Shown here one piece after another: positions 5,452 to 35,849 of a DNA stretch of 64,000 nucleotides; the stretch's first letter is position 1; every line of letters begins with the position of its first letter. The translations under genes and the position numbers were made by a program. This DNA is from Burkholderiales bacterium (GTDB lineage: Bacteria; Pseudomonadota; Gammaproteobacteria; Burkholderiales; SG8-39), in the NCBI GenBank assembly GCA_014860445.1, contig JACZJT010000023.1:1-64000 (forward strand). Direction: 5' to 3'. The notes beneath the pieces were generated by a model that saw nothing but the letters and a program-made list of their open reading frames with translations, searched no databases and was not told the origin of the DNA.

Positions 5452-6102
5452 TCAACGCCGCGCTGGCGGCTTGTGAAGGCGCAACGTGTGCGCCTCGCGC
5501 TCCAGCGCATCGCGCAGGCGCAGCAGCTTGGATTGTCGTTTCGTGATCAGAGGGTAATGCCGCGCCGTATCCAGCGCCCAGCCCACATCCCAGCAGTTTT
5601 TTTTCTGCGACACCCAGGTCTTCGGGTCCAGTCGGCGCATGTCAAATGCGATCGAGTAGCTGCGCAGCGTCTTCTGGTGGCGCTTGTTGCAGTATTCGTG
5701 GAAATAGGACATCGCGAGTTCGCGCAGGCTGCGGTATACCGGATCGCGCCAGCGCAGCACCGCGTGGTTGGTCTTGGAGATCGCCCCCCAGCAGCCGTTG
5801 CGGCGAAACAGCGTCAAAATATGGTCGTAGTCGCGCGTTGCTTTCAGGTCCATCAGCAGCGGCGGTTCGCCATTCACCCATAGTGCCGCAGCGGCGAACA
5901 TCGCGCCCTCAATGCACATCGCGCGGCGCTGGCCCAGGACTTCGCGCACCGACAGGCAGGTTTCGCCGCCGATCTCGAAATTCTGCGGAATCGCATCGAC
6001 GTAGGCCTGGATTTTTTCCGGAGTGTTGAGGCGTCTGAGTACCGCAAACTCGGCTTTTCTCAGTCCCAGATCCTCGCGCGTGGCGTAGCGCCGTTTGTTC
6101 AT
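5452..6102 (-). CDS. Conserved hypothetical protein, transglutaminase-like fold suspected
   Basis: The 216-residue protein has no signal peptide or membrane segment. A cysteine in RRAMCIEGAMFAAAAL (about residues 59-74) followed by a histidine in ATRDYDHILTLF (about 88-99) matches the Cys-His spacing of transglutaminase-like cysteine peptidases. I infer the fold from this pattern only, and the third catalytic residue is not clear. Its start overlaps the stop of the TfoX-like gene by four bases (ATGA), so the two are probably translated together. The C-terminal half is rich in basic and aromatic residues. Function unknown. Confidence 0.6.
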   Translation of the reverse strand: MNKRRYATREDLGLRKAEFAVLRRLNTPEKIQAYVDAIPQNFEIGGETCLSVREVLGQRRAMCIEGAMFAAAALWVNGEPPLLMDLKATRDYDHILTLFRRNGCWGAISKTNHAVLRWRDPVYRSLRELAMSYFHEYCNKRHQKTLRSYSIAFDMRRLDPKTWVSQKKNCWDVGWALDTARHYPLITKRQSKLLRLRDALEREAHTLRLHKPPARR

Positions 6103-6581
6103 CTCGCCCTCTTGCCGCGCTTGAGCGGTTTTGCCGGGCGTTTAACTTTTTTTGCGGCCGGCGCAGCCTTCGCGGACTTACCCGGCTGCGCCTTCGTCGC
6201 CTGGACCGCGCGCGCGATCTTCCTGGCGGCCTGCGCCTGGCCGGCAGCCTGCTTTTTCGCGTTTGCGCGCAAGGCCGCGGCATAGGCGGTGCGCGCCCAG
6301 GGCAGCATCAGCTCAGGGGACTCCATCGCATCCTCGGGTGCACGGAAAAAGTTGAGCGTGGCGCGCCTGCCTTTGCGCGCGTAGCCGAAAACTTCGCAGC
6401 CGGCCTGCGCGAACTCGACGCGGTTCATCTCGTCCGCCTTCAGATAGAGCGTGTCGCCGGAGATGATGGCGAACATCAGTCCGTCCAGATAGACGCCGTG
6501 GCCTCCGAACATGCGTCGCGACACCACCGTGCCGAATGGGCCGAACAACTCCATTACATAGTCGACGAAATCATCAGACAT
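6099..6581 (-). CDS. TfoX/Sxy N-terminal-domain protein with basic tail
   Basis: Residues 1-100 match the TfoX N-terminal domain: VDYVMELFGPFGTVVSRRMF, GGHGVYLDGLMFAIIS and LYLKADEMNR are characteristic. The C-terminal domain of Sxy is absent. In its place is a tail of about 60 residues very rich in lysine, alanine and arginine, resembling histone-like tails. Full-length Sxy regulates competence with CRP; single-domain members like this have no settled role. The ATG at 6581 begins MSDDFVDY, the usual start. It is first in a two-gene unit with the downstream transglutaminase-like protein. Confidence 0.8.
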   Translation of the reverse strand: MSDDFVDYVMELFGPFGTVVSRRMFGGHGVYLDGLMFAIISGDTLYLKADEMNRVEFAQAGCEVFGYARKGRRATLNFFRAPEDAMESPELMLPWARTAYAAALRANAKKQAAGQAQAARKIARAVQATKAQPGKSAKAAPAAKKVKRPAKPLKRGKRAR

Positions 6582-6740
6582 CGTCAAAACCCGCCAGTGG
6601 TTGAATTCCTGCCGCGGATTGTAGGGCCTGGCGCGCTCCCAGCCAAGCGGCGCCGGCCGCTTCCCCACCCCTAAGGTCGGATAGCGGGTCCGCTGCAATC
6701 GCGCCCTCGCCTGGCCGCAGCGGCGCGCGCGAGGCCATGC

Positions 6741-7955
6741 CTACAACCAGCGCTGCATTGAATAGCCGCCGATGAACGGCCGCTGCATGGCGGCGCGGAA
6801 TATCTGCCGGCCCCAGTTGAATTCCTTGTACAGCACGACGAAACGCCACATGTCCCGCAACACCTTGGCGCGGTCGCGCCATGGGAGGGCCATCAGCGCC
6901 GCCGGAAAGTCGGCTTCGTGCGGGCGATCGAAAGCGATCTTGAGCGGATTCCACTGGTCCGTCGTGCGGCGAACCTCCGAGGCGATCATGCGGCGGTACA
7001 TCTCCTGCACCGGACGATTGCGTGCGCGCGCTTCCACCACCGCCTCGCCGGAAATCGCGCCCGAGTGCAGCGCGCAACTCATGCCTTCGCCTATCATGTT
7101 GAGGAAACCCGCGGCCTGGCCGGTGATCAGTACATTGCCCTTGCCGAACACGTAGCGGTTGATCAGCGACGGCCCGAAGTTCTCGCCGCAGCCCTCGTCC
7201 TCCGTGTGCGGTTGCAGGCGCACGCCGTGTTTTTCGGCCAGGTAGTTCACCACGTTTTCATGCTTCTTGGCGAAGTTGTCGCCGCGCTTGAAACCGACAC
7301 CGACGATCTGCCGCCCGTCGCGGGCGTGGCTCCAGGTGTAATGGCCCAGGCCGGGATGAAACCAGAAATGAAAATAGTCCGCGCTCAGCGGGCAGTCGAT
7401 GATGTCGTGAAACTTCTGCCCGACGAAAAACCAGGGGATCGACTGCGGGTAATCCGGATAGATCGAGCGGATGACCAGCGAGCTCGGGCCGTCGGCGCCG
7501 ATCGCCTGGCGCGCGCGGTATTCGACCGGCTCGCCTTGCTTGCGCGCATGCACCAGCACGTGATCGCCCTTGTCCTCGAGACCGGCGAACGAGGTGCGGT
7601 CGTGCACCTCGGCGCCGCTGCGCTTGATCGCCCAGTAGTCGGAATACTTGCGGTGCAGATGCGGTGTGCTGCCGCCGAAAAAATCCATTTCCAGCGACAC
7701 CATGCTCGGGAAATGAAAGGTCACGCCGCGGCAGGAGGTCGGCTCGTGCAGCGCCTCGCGCGGCAGCGGGCCGAAGTTCTCCAGCAGGAAACGATGCCCG
7801 CGCGGCGACAGGATGCCGCTGCAGATCTTGTGGCGCGGCAGCTCCTTCCTTTCCAGGACGATGGTTTCGAGGCCGGCATCCACCAGGCGTTTCGCCGCCG
7901 CAGCGGCCGACAGGCTGGCGCCGACTATGATTACATCAACTGTGCGCGTGGTCAT
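6741..7955 (-). CDS. Geranylgeranyl-reductase-family FAD-dependent oxidoreductase
   Basis: The 404-residue flavoprotein has an N-terminal Rossmann fold (VDVIIVGASLSAAAAAKRL, residues 6-24), the PRHKICSG motif near residue 40 and GADGPSS near 153. A second FAD segment VLITGQAAGFLNMIGEGM near 275 fits the geranylgeranyl reductase/UbiH-like group. Family members reduce isoprenoid double bonds or hydroxylate aromatics. The usual GxGxxG is altered to GASLSA, so one FAD-binding glycine is replaced by serine. No bacteriochlorophyll or carotenoid gene is nearby, so the substrate is open. The gene is preceded by a palindromic repeat rather than a partner gene. Confidence 0.8.
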   Translation of the reverse strand: MTTRTVDVIIVGASLSAAAAAKRLVDAGLETIVLERKELPRHKICSGILSPRGHRFLLENFGPLPREALHEPTSCRGVTFHFPSMVSLEMDFFGGSTPHLHRKYSDYWAIKRSGAEVHDRTSFAGLEDKGDHVLVHARKQGEPVEYRARQAIGADGPSSLVIRSIYPDYPQSIPWFFVGQKFHDIIDCPLSADYFHFWFHPGLGHYTWSHARDGRQIVGVGFKRGDNFAKKHENVVNYLAEKHGVRLQPHTEDEGCGENFGPSLINRYVFGKGNVLITGQAAGFLNMIGEGMSCALHSGAISGEAVVEARARNRPVQEMYRRMIASEVRRTTDQWNPLKIAFDRPHEADFPAALMALPWRDRAKVLRDMWRFVVLYKEFNWGRQIFRAAMQRPFIGGYSMQRWL

Positions 7956-24164: not shown

Positions 24165-24281
24165 ATAACCCGAGCCCTTGCGCCACCATTACGATGGCAT
24201 TCGTTCGAGCTACAGCCCGAGCCGTTGTACCGCTATTACGATGGCATCCGTTCGGGCTACAGCCCGAGCCGTTGCCATACG
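24165..24281. repeat. 47-bp tandem repeat (two full units plus a partial) crossing the metF stop
   Basis: Unit A is 24188-24234 and unit B 24235-24281. Both begin ATTACGATGGCAT and contain CTACAGCCCGAGCCGTTG. They differ by a few bases, mostly in the last eight. A weaker partial copy lies at 24165-24187. Unit B overlaps the last codons and stop of metF, so the array looks like duplication of the metF 3' end into the gap before glpC. Confidence 0.85.
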
Positions 24282-25102
24282 GTCGACACCAGCCCGGCCT
24301 GGTTCATCGTATAGAAATGCAGGCCTGGCGCGCCCTGCGACAGCAGTCTGTCGCACAGCTCGGTGATCACGTCCAGACCGAAACTGCGGATCGACGCGAC
24401 GTCGTCCGCGTAGCTCTGCAGCCGCAGCCGCAGCCAGCGCGGGATCTCCGCGCCGCATGCGTCCGAAAACCGTGCGAGCTGCGAGAAGTTGGCGATGGGC
24501 ATGATGCCCGGCACGATCGGCAGGTCCATGCCCAGCGCTTCGCAGTCGTCGATGAAGCGGAAGTAGGCGTCGGCATTGAAAAAATACTGGGTGATCGCCG
24601 CATTCGCGCCTGCGTCCACCTTGCGTTTGAACGCGCGCAGATCTTCGTGAGCCGAGCGCGCCTGCGGGTGGAACTCCGGATAGCCCGCAACTTCGATGTG
24701 AAAATGATCGCCTGTGGCCTCACGGATGAATTGCACCAGTTCGTTGGCATAGCGCAGTTCGCCTGCGCCGGCCGAACCCGAAGGCAAGTCGCCGCGCAAT
24801 GCGACGATATGGCGCAGGCCGTGCGACTTGTACAGGGCCAGCGTTGCGGCAAGGTCGTCGCGCGACGAACCGATGCAGGAAAGGTGCGGCGCCGCTGCGC
24901 CGCCGTCTTTCTGAATCTCGAGCACCGCTTCCAGCGTGCGGTCGCGGGTCGAACCGCCGGCGCCGTAGGTGACCGAGAAAAACCTGGGTTTGAGCTGTAT
25001 CAGCTGCCTCCAGGTGGCGCGCAGCTTCTCCATGCCTTCCGGCGTTTTCGGCGGGAAGAACTCGAAGCTGAACGTCGCGGGATATTTTTTTTGTGTTTCC
25101 AT
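24257..25102 (-). CDS. metF: 5,10-methylenetetrahydrofolate reductase
   Basis: MetF reduces methylene-THF to methyl-THF, the methyl donor for methionine synthesis. The 281-residue TIM-barrel flavoprotein has FSFEFFPPKTPEGMEKL (about 12-28), the SVTYGAGGSTRDRT motif (about 43-56), GDLPSG at about 105-110, and ITQYFFNADAYFRF near 180. Length matches bacterial MetF. It starts 57 bases after the ahcY stop on the same strand, and is probably in the ahcY transcript under the riboswitch. Its last codons lie in a tandem repeat, giving a C-terminus WQRLGL. Confidence 0.94.
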   Translation of the reverse strand: METQKKYPATFSFEFFPPKTPEGMEKLRATWRQLIQLKPRFFSVTYGAGGSTRDRTLEAVLEIQKDGGAAAPHLSCIGSSRDDLAATLALYKSHGLRHIVALRGDLPSGSAGAGELRYANELVQFIREATGDHFHIEVAGYPEFHPQARSAHEDLRAFKRKVDAGANAAITQYFFNADAYFRFIDDCEALGMDLPIVPGIMPIANFSQLARFSDACGAEIPRWLRLRLQSYADDVASIRSFGLDVITELCDRLLSQGAPGLHFYTMNQAGLVSTVWQRLGL

Positions 25103-25159: not shown

Positions 25160-26590
<1,431 letters not shown>

Positions 26591-26620
26591 CACGCGCTCC
26601 TTTCGTTTGAGAAAAAAGTT

Positions 26621-26692
26621 CGTGAGCGCCGTTGCGGTGGTGTACACCCCGAGCCTGGCGGATGGTGAAATCCGTCGCAACGCTCCTCGGGG
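26621..26692 (-). promoter_or_regulatory. S-adenosylhomocysteine (SAH) riboswitch
   Basis: Read on the minus strand, the leader contains CCGAGGAGCG, then a short hairpin (GCGACGGATTTCACCATCCGC), then CCAGGCTCGG, and finally AACGGCGCTCAC. These are the conserved blocks of the SAH riboswitch: CCGAG pairs with CTCGG, and GAGCG pairs with CGCTC to form the pseudoknot-like long-range helix. It ends 30 bases before the ahcY ATG, ahead of its ribosome site. This class turns expression on when SAH accumulates. Confidence 0.92.
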
Positions 26693-26785
26693 GACGCGCA
26701 TTTTACCGCAACTAGCACCTTGGGCGCCAGCCTTGGCCGCGATTAGGGCTTGGGAAGACGTGTTTCAGCGCTTGTTTCAAAATGG

Positions 26786-33189: not shown

Positions 33190-33618
33190 ATGTCATCCAC
33201 TGCGTTCGCCAACCCGGAGCCCGAGCAGATCAGGGCCTTGCTGCGCAGCGTGAAGACAATCGCGGTGGTGGGCTATTCGCCCAAGCCCGGTCGCGCCAGC
33301 CACAATATCGCCTTGCGCATGCAGCAGTTCGGTTTTCGCATCATCCCGGTACGGCCCGGAATCAGCGAGGGTTTGGGGGAAACGGCCTACCCGAATCTGG
33401 AATCGGTGCCGGACACCATCGATCTGGCGAACGTATTCAGATCCGGAAAATACATACCCGAAGTGCTCGACCAGTGCCTGCGCAAGGGCATCACCAGGCT
33501 TTGGATGCAGGAAGGCGCGGAGCACGAGGAATCGGCCCTGCGCGCGCGCGCGGCCGGCATGACCGTGGTCATGGGGCGGTGCATCATGCGCGACTATACG
33601 AGGCTGTGCCTTGATTGA
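33190..33618 (+). CDS. CoA-binding domain protein (YccU-like)
   Basis: The 142-residue protein is a single Rossmann-like CoA-binding domain: IAVVGYSPKPGRASHNIALR (about 24-43), a middle RIIPVRPG, then GITRLWMQEGAEHEESALR and CIMRDYTRL. It matches the small standalone YccU type. The function is not settled beyond CoA binding. It starts 71 bases after the acyltransferase, with TTAAAAT just upstream, and overlaps the GNAT gene by eight bases. Confidence 0.85.
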   Translation: MSSTAFANPEPEQIRALLRSVKTIAVVGYSPKPGRASHNIALRMQQFGFRIIPVRPGISEGLGETAYPNLESVPDTIDLANVFRSGKYIPEVLDQCLRKGITRLWMQEGAEHEESALRARAAGMTVVMGRCIMRDYTRLCLD

Positions 33619-34111
33619 GGAATTGAAGATCGCGCCGCTGGCCGAGGCCGATATCCCCGCGCTCATCGAACTCGCGGGACTCATCTGGCGCCGCCACTAT
33701 CCGGGCATCATCAGCATGCAGCAGATCGATTACATGCTGGCGCAGCGCTATACGCCTGCGATCATCCGAGCGCAAATGCAAAGCGGCAGCGCCTGGTGGG
33801 ACCAGGCCCTGGTCGATGGCAGCATGATCGGATTCGCGCAGTACGAATTGCACGGGCGCTCGATGAAGCTCGATAAACTCTATGTTCACCCGGATTTTCA
33901 GCGGCGGGGCTACGGCGCCCGCATGCTCGCGCATATCGAGGACGGGGCGCGTGCGCGCGGTGCCCTCGCGGTGAGGTTGAACGTCAACAAGCATAATCTC
34001 AAGTCCATCGCCGCCTACCGCAAAAGCGGCTACGAGGTCGTGGACGAGGTGGTCGCCGACATCGGCGAAGGCTATGTCATGGACGATTTCGTCATGGAAA
34101 AGAAACTGTGA
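33611..34111 (+). CDS. GNAT-family N-acetyltransferase
   Basis: The 166-residue protein has the GNAT acetyl-CoA loop in HPDFQRRGYGARMLAHIED (about 97-115), preceded by KLDKLYVHP and followed by LNVNKHNLKSIAAYRKSGYE, all standard. The first codon is TTG at 33611, inside the end of the CoA-binding gene, with AGG seven bases upstream; no ATG gives the full domain. Its TGA overlaps the GTG of the dapF remnant. The substrate is unknown. Confidence 0.85.
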   Translation: MIEELKIAPLAEADIPALIELAGLIWRRHYPGIISMQQIDYMLAQRYTPAIIRAQMQSGSAWWDQALVDGSMIGFAQYELHGRSMKLDKLYVHPDFQRRGYGARMLAHIEDGARARGALAVRLNVNKHNLKSIAAYRKSGYEVVDEVVADIGEGYVMDDFVMEKKL

Positions 34112-34277
34112 AACCCGCGTTCGACAAGGTGCAAGCTGCGGGAACCGATTGTGTCGTGCACGAAGGCGCCCGGCGCTGCGCACTGGCGCGGGCGATTTGA
34201 CGATACGCCGGGAAGACGCGGACAATCCGGTGTGGATGACCGGTCCTGCGGTCAACGAAATCGAAGGAGAAATGTAA
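34108..34277 (+). pseudogene. dapF: dapF (diaminopimelate epimerase) remnant with the middle deleted
   Basis: A GTG at 34108, overlapping the GNAT stop, starts a frame reading VKPAFDKVQAAGTDCVV. This resembles the DapF N-terminus (K..F.K.....G.DFVV). That frame stops at 34198-34200. In another frame from about 34180 to the TAA at 34275-34277 the sequence reads GDLTIRREDADNPVWMTGPA followed by VNEIEGEM, resembling the DapF C-terminus (PVWMTGPA.....EGE). A normal dapF has about 275 codons; only about 57 codons of length remain, in two frames, and both catalytic cysteines are gone. dapF commonly occupies this place, before DUF484 and xerC, in betaproteobacteria. Confidence 0.75.
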
Positions 34278-34281
34278 ATCA

Positions 34282-34923
34282 ATGAATGCTGATGAAGTCG
34301 TACGCTACCTGCAGGACAATCCCGGATTTTTCGAGGAGTACGCCGAACTGCTGGCGCAGATCTACATTCCCCACCCGCACGGCGGCCGCGCCATTCCGAT
34401 CGCGGAGCGCCAGATTCTCACGCTGCGCGAAAAGAGCAGAATGCTCGAAGGCAAGCTCGCCGAGCTGATCCAGTTCGGCGAGGAAAACGACGCGATCGGC
34501 GAAAAAATGCACCGGCTGTGCCTTGCTCTGCTGCCCGCCGCTGACCTGCAAGCCATGCTGCAGGCGCTGTATTACAACCTGCGCGAGGACTTCGCCGTGC
34601 CGCATACGGCGCTGCGCGTCTGGCGTGGCGCGGCAGAGGGCACCGAATTTGCACACCCCGGCGACGAAGTACGCCAGTACGCGGCAGGGCTCGAGCGTCC
34701 TTTCTGCGGTCCCGACGCCAATCCGGAGGTGCTGTCCTGGTTCGGCGAGACGGCGGCGCAGCTGCGCTCGATTGCCTGCATGACTCTGCGCGACGGCGGG
34801 GAGTGCTTCGGCATGCTGGCGCTCGCCAGCGAAGATCCGAAGCGCTTTTACCCGGAGATGGGCACGCTCTACCTCCAGCGCCTGAGCGAACTTCTGAGCG
34901 CGGCGCTGCGGCGCTACGTGTAG
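34282..34923 (+). CDS. DUF484 family protein
   Basis: The 213-residue protein has the DUF484 features: an N-terminal VVRYLQDNPGFFEEYAELLA (about 6-25), a short PHPHGGRAIPIAERQI, a coiled-coil-prone helix, then a GAF-like C-terminal half with SIACMTLRDGGECFGMLALA and DPKRFYPEMGTLYLQRL. The family often lies between dapF and xerC; its role is not established. Its ATG is five bases after the dapF remnant stop, with GGAG upstream, and it ends three bases before xerC. Confidence 0.9.
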   Translation: MNADEVVRYLQDNPGFFEEYAELLAQIYIPHPHGGRAIPIAERQILTLREKSRMLEGKLAELIQFGEENDAIGEKMHRLCLALLPAADLQAMLQALYYNLREDFAVPHTALRVWRGAAEGTEFAHPGDEVRQYAAGLERPFCGPDANPEVLSWFGETAAQLRSIACMTLRDGGECFGMLALASEDPKRFYPEMGTLYLQRLSELLSAALRRYV

Positions 34924-34925
34924 CC

Positions 34926-35849
34926 ATGCCGGTGGATCAGGCTAGCGCAACGCCGCCCGATCCCCGCCGCGAGCTGCTGACGGCCTACCTCGCGCACCTG
35001 TCGCATCAGCGGCATCTCGCCGCGGGCACGCGCCGCAACTACGAGAAGGACATCGAAGCGCTGTTCGAACTTCATCCAGGCGTGGAACTCGCGCGCATGC
35101 AGCCGCAGCACATCCGCCGCAGCGTCGCGCAGCTGCATGCGCGCGGCCTCACGGGGCGCACCATCGCCCACATGCTTTCGGCCTGGCGCGGCCTGTTTGC
35201 CTGGCTCGCGCGTCACCGCGGCTATAGCGCCAACCCCTGCCTGGGCTTGCGCGCACCCAAATCCGCCAGGGGTTTGCCCAAGGCGCTCTCGCCCGAGGCG
35301 GCGGGACAGCTGCTGGATGCGCCCGCCGAAACGCCTGCGGACATCCGCGACAAAGCCATGTTCGAGCTCGCCTATTCCTCCGGCCTGCGTCTGGCCGAAC
35401 TCGTCAGCCTGGATCTCGCGCATGCGGACGTGATCCGCCGCGAGGCCGAAGTGACGGTGACCGGCAAGGGCGGCAAGACGCGCAGCGTGCCGGTGGGCGC
35501 GAACGCGCGCGCGGCAATCGAAACCTGGCTGGGCACGCGCTCCCTGCTTGCGCGGGCCGAAGAGCCGGCGCTGTTCGTCGGTGCGCGCGGCGAGCGCATC
35601 GCCGCGGGCGTGGTGCGCGCGCGCCTCGCGCAGTGGGCCATCCGCGCGGGCCTGCCGGTGCACGTCCATCCCCACGTATTGCGCCACTCCTTTGCGACGC
35701 ACGTGCTGCAGTCCTCAGGCGACCTGCGCGCGGTGCAGGAAATGCTGGGTCATTCGAGCATCTCGACGACGCAGGTGTACACGCACCTGGATTTCCAGTA
35801 CCTGGCCAAGGCCTACGACGCCGCGCATCCGCGGGCGAAGAAGAAATAG
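34926..35849 (+). CDS. xerC: Tyrosine recombinase XerC
   Basis: XerC with XerD resolves chromosome dimers at dif. The 307-residue product has an N-terminal SAM-like DNA-binding domain (LLTAYLAHLSHQRHLAAGTR) and the catalytic set: R in SSGLRLAELV, HPHVLRHSFATH giving H and R, then HSSISTTQVYTHL giving H and the nucleophile Y. It starts three bases after DUF484. Position and length identify it as XerC rather than a phage integrase, and no attachment site was seen. Confidence 0.93.
   Translation: MPVDQASATPPDPRRELLTAYLAHLSHQRHLAAGTRRNYEKDIEALFELHPGVELARMQPQHIRRSVAQLHARGLTGRTIAHMLSAWRGLFAWLARHRGYSANPCLGLRAPKSARGLPKALSPEAAGQLLDAPAETPADIRDKAMFELAYSSGLRLAELVSLDLAHADVIRREAEVTVTGKGGKTRSVPVGANARAAIETWLGTRSLLARAEEPALFVGARGERIAAGVVRARLAQWAIRAGLPVHVHPHVLRHSFATHVLQSSGDLRAVQEMLGHSSISTTQVYTHLDFQYLAKAYDAAHPRAKKK

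Follow-up and report, generated by a model that had tools for sequence, protein, structure and literature searches.

The window (the whole stretch of DNA analysed, 64,000 nucleotides of contig JACZJT010000023.1 from a Burkholderiales bacterium) carries, between a GNAT acetyltransferase gene and a DUF484 gene, a fragment of dapF, a gene of lysine and cell-wall synthesis. The fragment is confirmed as a dead dapF left in its ancestral slot. The features of the slot, all on the forward strand, are:

33190..33618, + strand: CoA-binding protein gene (PF13380), by family search
33611..34111, + strand: GNAT acetyltransferase gene whose stop overlaps the dapF start, by reading frame and family search
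34108..34277, + strand: dapF pseudogene, with both DapF ends in different frames, about 650 bases missing inside and a TAA at its end
34108..34180, + strand: surviving dapF 5' end, about codons 1-25, from a GTG, by DapF match and slot position
34181..34277, + strand: surviving dapF 3' end in a shifted frame with an early TAA, by match to the DapF of sister genome G002 (E = 7e-12)
34197..34226, + strand: promoter-like TTGACG-N18-GACAAT in the dapF 3' end (one found, 0.4 expected)
34282..34923, + strand: DUF484 gene (PF04340), downstream of the remnant, by family search
34927..35849, + strand: tyrosine recombinase gene, a reading frame that we take to be xerC-like, as in the sequence-only reading

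The dapF remnant and its slot across the genus

All genomes compared here are draft assemblies and the evidence is their assembled sequence. The remnant's GTG (34108) shares bases with the GNAT stop codon (TGA, 34109-34111), and the same overlap is seen for the dapF of G002, whose DapF served as the query. The 5' piece of the remnant in the window's own genome (G000) matches residues 1-30 of G002 DapF at 53% identity; this match is weak (E = 0.04) and is taken as firm because it sits at the GNAT/dapF overlap. The 3' piece matches residues 218-279 (E = 7e-12) in a frame other than that of the 5' piece. Comparison of the slot with G002 by blastn gives 4e-44 for the 3' piece and 1e-26 for the 5' piece, the latter including 40 bases of GNAT, which upholds the two fragments as dapF ends rather than chance matches. 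From the dapF start to the DUF484 start there are 174 bases, compared with 837 for an intact dapF; about 170 of the 837 bases remain and the slot holds no full-length open dapF frame. Single-deletion fits against four intact genes place the loss at 652-655 bases, and the junction can be placed no more exactly than about 34157-34186, given later changes in the remnant. An earlier, sequence-only reading of this DNA had proposed an N-terminus starting at a GTG between GNAT and DUF484, a C-terminus after a frame change, some 170 of about 830 bases left, and an internal deletion with a frame change in the ancestral slot; each of these is borne out by the measurements above and by alignment with the four relatives that keep dapF at this place (G002, G004, G007 and G011).

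The slot was located in the genus sample of 14 genomes (G000-G013) by dapF and DUF484 searches. A collapsed dapF occupies it in six genomes (G000, G001, G005, G006, G010 and G012) and a full-length dapF in four (G002, G004, G007 and G011). The dapF of G009 is matched over 194 codons before the contig ends, the G013 contig carries the last 38 codons only, and in G003 and G008, where DUF484 had no match, the slot was not located. Gene order is GNAT-dapF-DUF484 in G002 and G004 and dapF-DUF484 in G007 and G011; in G005, G007 and G011 the search placed no GNAT next to dapF. The suggestion that GNAT came to this interval with the collapse does not hold, given that it already adjoins dapF where that gene is intact (G002, G004) or open up to a contig end (G009), and the two intact cases also rule out insertion of GNAT as the cause of the collapse.

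Fits of a single deletion give losses of 652-653 bases in G005, 630 in G010, 546-547 in G001 and 454 in G012, and in G006 the deletion extends into GNAT. One deletion common to all collapsed genomes was rejected, as the sizes differ (630, 547, 454, and larger in G006); the nearly equal deletions of G000 and G005 (652-655) may reflect a single event or a hotspot. Often a junction can be placed only to within a few bases, the pattern left by deletions between short repeats. In the DUF484 tree, in which few forks are well supported, collapsed and intact states are intermixed and at least three state changes are required, which is no firm count of losses. An artefact of assembly or binning, with a complete dapF in the genome that the contig has lost at the slot, is very improbable: the remnant lies on a single 170-kb contig, five other assemblies of the genus are collapsed at the same slot, several with other junctions, and no full dapF is found elsewhere in a genome of 99.5% stated completeness.

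Elsewhere in the window an SAH riboswitch (RF01057, 66 bits) lies on the minus strand at 26617-26694, where a frame of that strand begins; this frame (25160-26701) is presumably an adenosylhomocysteinase gene and is followed by a frame (24257-25102) that we take to be metF-like.

A promoter-like site in the 3' end of dapF

The TTGACG/GACAAT pair recurs at equal spacing in 14 of 14 aligned sequences, 11 from the genus and 3 from other genera. Among 28 intact dapF genes, a relaxed version of the pattern occurs in 10 of the 14 that belong to the family and in none of the 14 others, and is therefore not general to dapF. The -35 box includes Leu codon 249, which is TTG in 13 of 14 family genes against a 10% background. 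Among 133 conserved columns this codon is the strongest outlier (p = 1.8e-12, the next being 1.2e-5), although such p values ignore the relatedness of the genes, which makes the rank the better measure; it still ranks first over all 28 genes (16/27). On the right-hand side each of the six deletions ends upstream of the promoter box, in G005 by only a few bases, a position that proves little because the box is near the gene end and an upstream breakpoint is often expected by chance.

From its motif and conservation we infer that the site is an active promoter, and it is probably the promoter of DUF484-xerC; the 3' remnant would then persist because this predicted promoter lies in the last 100 bases of dapF. 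At the 5' side the overlap with the GNAT stop may limit deletions. Protection of GNAT does not explain the survival of the 5' end in general, since the G006 deletion cut GNAT and in G005, G007 and G011 no GNAT stands by dapF. That the remnant is instead a working small gene, for example one for a short fused peptide, is highly improbable: its ends are joined in frame in G010 (about 68 codons) but out of frame in G000, G001, G005 and G012, and what is conserved in the 14 aligned sequences is the promoter-like pair at one spacing.

A second DAP cassette and the decay of the ancestral genes

The sequence-only reading had argued that a genome with a dead dapF needs a second dapF or another route to meso-DAP. 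Such a route is found on a contig other than that of the window, where a cassette, lysA2 / murE2-dapF*-dapL (G000:C60:101441-106660), encodes DapL together with a diverged DapF homologue (DapF*) that is the sole PF01678 match in the genome. The cassette proteins score 282 bits for the LysA-like protein (cut-off 298), 518 for MurE (476) and 621 for DapL (364.7, TIGR03542). DapL is over its cut-off in 9 of the 14 genus genomes, and contig ends cut the copies of G002 and G013. DAP dehydrogenase (ddh, PF16654), the other route that had been raised, has no match in any of the 14 genomes and is ruled out as a bypass.

The loss of dapF stands, but it is not limited to dapF, for dapD, dapE and the ancestral lysA are also gone or decaying. 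Family searches of the window's own genome found no dapD, canonical dapE, ancestral lysA or DAP dehydrogenase; TIGR01048 matches lysA2 alone, and the usual neighbours of the ancestral lysA are absent from the window and from three other stretches of this genome that were compared. Across the genus dapD is over cut-off only in G009, present as fragments in seven genomes and without a match in six, as against 43 of 46 genomes of other genera with dapD over cut-off. The corresponding count for dapE is 8 of 14, the own genome not among them and the G010 copy short at its start. Ancestral lysA reaches its cut-off in 5 of 14, with fragments in G001, G003, G008, G010 and G012, partial matches in G002 and G006 and none in G000 and G007. 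The murE type that sits among other mur genes (dcw-type) is over cut-off in 12 of 14 and remains in the own genome.

The cassette sits after the place of the old dapC-dapD-pilT-dapE-prmB-FAH genes, FAH being a weak fumarylacetoacetate-hydrolase match (21 bits against 24). In G009 these genes are intact, and a nitrilase-family gene comes next before the contig ends. In the own genome pilT, prmB and FAH are kept; dapD and dapE are gone from the operon, as is dapC save for one stretch that matches the query's upstream extension. Of the 14 genomes 13 show at least a part of the cassette, the exception being G009, a 59%-complete bin with ancestral genes. The contigs of G002, G005 and G006 break within the cassette, and all that G005 and G006 show of it is lysA2-like sequence where a contig ends. 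No DapF*-type match was found in the 46 genomes of other genera, and the same cassette partners occur in three Acidobacteria MAGs at 68-73% identity, one of them (L130) without murE2; murE2 is also absent beside dapF* in G001. Given its absence from the sampled relatives and its presence in Acidobacteria, the cassette appears to have been transferred into the genus.

Several local features of these loci were also observed. In G001 an insert of about 1 kb (L067, 1597-2740) separates dapF* from dapL, with a second dapF* tail before dapL, and by eye contains an ArsR-like gene and a HicBA-like pair. G004 has a full dapF* (L068, 3582-4604) without an intact dapL after it, and on a separate contig a dapF* tail (L110, 8693-8854) directly before dapL. 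One acidobacterial cassette (L129, CTSoil_012) is followed, after dapL, by what is by eye a dapD-like gene (5848-6804). On G009 contig C153 (L002, L232) there is a divergent lysA-dapF-DUF484 with a DUF484 of 36% identity; with this contig beside genus-like ones and its 59% completeness, G009 is probably a mixed bin. An Rfam scan of the 20-kb cassette locus gave no family at the gathering score.

DapF* and the probable replacement of a pathway branch

DapF*, encoded at G000:C60:104384-105412, scores 62.4 bits against PF01678, over the gathering score of 34.7, and falls below the NCBIfam equivalog TIGR00652 (77.6 against 114.65), as do four relatives (63-79); the Chlamydia-type bifunctional model NF038284 matches weakly. 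Relatives were collected by a scan of named genomes, and the best 80 of 162 comprise 9 betaproteobacterial MAGs, 3 Acidobacteria MAGs and 68 Pseudomonas and relatives. Both DapF cysteine positions are serine in all of these best 80 of 162. A joint alignment (A2) of 76 rows was made from 50 DapF* sequences (the own protein and 49 others, chosen by similarity thinning among the 78 of 80 that a check for stops and frame had cleared) and 26 canonical DapF (from 30 loci, with a match longer than 250 residues and no stop). Within it DapF* is 21-28% identical to canonical DapF. Both have the DapF fold family, substrate-binding residues and DAP-synthesis gene context in common, but DapF* is longer (342 residues compared with about 279) and has Ser99/Ser284 in 50 of 50 rows in place of Cys/Cys in 26 of 26. 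N12, N90, N205, N257, E275 and R276, which we take to be substrate-binding residues of DapF, are invariant across all 76 rows. Cys51, Cys208 and Cys252 are invariant in the 50 DapF* rows and missing from the 26 canonical ones; the solved DapF 9mro also carries a cysteine at the Cys208 position.

An AlphaFold2 model of DapF* from the 76-row alignment has a pLDDT of 92.2 and a pTM of 0.89, although the 26 canonical DapF in that alignment may pull it towards their fold; an earlier model from 9 near-identical sequences (pLDDT 35) was discarded. Both serines lie just ahead of helices (100-112 and 285-297). The best solved matches are DapF-type enzymes, with O-ureidoserine racemase and DapF on top: Foldseek gives E = 5e-20 to 2q9h (TM 0.59/0.72, superposition rmsd near 6) and VIA gives Z of 26-28 for the top ten (rmsd near 3). 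DapF* is thus predicted to have the DapF fold. Pairwise dN/dS is 0.150-0.256 for DapF* (36 pairs) and 0.121-0.213 for canonical dapF (6 pairs), indicating purifying selection.

DapF* is intact in 9 of the 14 genus genomes (G000, G001, G003, G004, G008 and G010-G013). G004 and G011 have both genes intact, and G007 presents the opposite loss: its canonical dapF is intact, and of DapF* about 37 codons are left, flanked by murE2 and dapL in the interior of a contig. Of seven genomes in which both loci can be read, four have DapF* only, two have both, one has the canonical gene only and none is without both; this is an argument from need and not a statistical one, seven being too few for a test. 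G005 and G006, with contigs that run out in lysA2-like sequence, have a collapsed dapF, and the searches gave no DapF* and no DapL over cut-off for them. DapF* is the only PF01678 match in two of the three cassette-bearing Acidobacteria (MAGs of unstated completeness) and the third has both types; in the acidobacterial family of G062 (n = 11) eight have canonical DapF, G062 has DapF* only and two are without a match. The betaproteobacterium of L121 carries both, as do six of six gammaproteobacterial genomes searched (five Pseudomonas), and because canonical dapF coexists with the relative in all six, the DapF* family there would do something else or something extra. The Ser/Ser relatives from Pseudomonas and its kin (L132-L199) are 45-50% identical and the DNA fetched around them is without cassette genes; homologues of an MFS-like gene of L181 occur at 58 of the 68 loci and of an amidohydrolase-like gene at 61 (names by eye).

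Within the genus it is most likely, judging from gene content and conservation, that DapF* turns LL-DAP into meso-DAP and replaces DapF. A fuller proposal is offered tentatively: that DapF* would be the sole DAP epimerase, inverting the alpha carbon with its Ser/Ser pair or with moved cysteines (Cys208 and Cys252 being invariant), in a swap whose stages (before, both, reversed and after) may be traced within one genus. We know of no precedent for either chemistry in the DapF superfamily. Against an epimerase role of DapF* speaks a related racemase, whose single Cys-to-Ser mutants are reported to have greatly reduced turnover (PMC11602996). The alternative, that dapF is dead and the cassette provides LL-DAP but DapF* is no epimerase, with an unrecognised racemase at work or an LL-DAP wall accepted by LysA2 and MurE, is unlikely; in its favour are the Ser/Ser positions in all of the best 80 of 162 relatives, the score under the TIGR00652 cut-off, the company of lysA2 and murE2, and the Pseudomonas relatives that coexist with canonical dapF. 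Against it stand the retention of the six other DapF residues, the purifying selection on DapF* and the opposite loss in G007. Moreover, G001 lacks murE2 and none was found next to the DapF* gene of L130, and the DNPR motif, which we take to be linked to meso-DAP in MurE, is present in both MurE types.

On the observed remnant, gene losses, cassette, Ser/Ser positions and conserved promoter-like site, it is probable that the dapF pseudogene is a leftover of the replacement of a pathway branch by an acquired cassette, with DapF* as the likely epimerase, and the genus pattern looks like a pathway swap in progress. An ancestor in this betaproteobacterial genus would have gained lysA2 / murE2-dapF*-dapL, whose nearest relatives outside the genus were found in Acidobacteria, beside its own dapC-dapD-pilT-dapE-prmB. 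DapL would yield LL-diaminopimelate in one step, making dapC, dapD and dapE dispensable because LL-DAP is then made directly; LysA2 would take over from LysA, and DapF*, a Ser/Ser protein of predicted DapF fold, from DapF. The old genes would then decay lineage by lineage, often through internal deletions. This would leave the own genome as it is found, with dapC and dapD out of the operon, dapE and the ancestral lysA not found, dapF dead and the dcw-type murE kept, the dapF 3' end being retained for the predicted DUF484-xerC promoter.

Parts of this scheme have known counterparts. A review (PMC4176475) describes DapL as bypassing DapC, DapD and DapE, and reports that in Treponema azotonutricum dapL lies in a cluster with five further DAP/lysine genes, dapF not among them. 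The DapL of the genus cassette would make the same bypass; the arrangement differs, being lysA2 / murE2-dapF*-dapL, beside decaying succinylase genes and with a Ser/Ser epimerase candidate. Among the open-access papers listed by literature searches, none was seen to describe this case, whether as dapF loss, a second dapF, a DapF with Ser/Ser or a cluster of dapL, murE and dapF.

The proline racemase superfamily, a two-base fold family like that of DapF*, has members in which one catalytic cysteine is replaced (Ser/Cys and Cys/Thr pairs), and the catalytic cysteine may change; the variants known so far keep at least one cysteine, whereas DapF* keeps neither. That acquired analogues take over and resident genes decay is a general process, but here the change takes in an entire branch, and the stages before, with both, reversed and after are all seen within a single genus.

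If DapF* works as proposed, an essential step of cell-wall and lysine synthesis runs without the cysteine pair that is basic to DapF chemistry. The genus would then provide a series of states for replacing an essential branch without a lethal gap, from the old genes of G009, through both epimerases in G004 and G011 and the old dapF kept with the new one lost in G007, to the almost complete swap of the window's own genome. The embedded promoter, as predicted, would be a simple reason for a dead gene to leave its 3' end behind.
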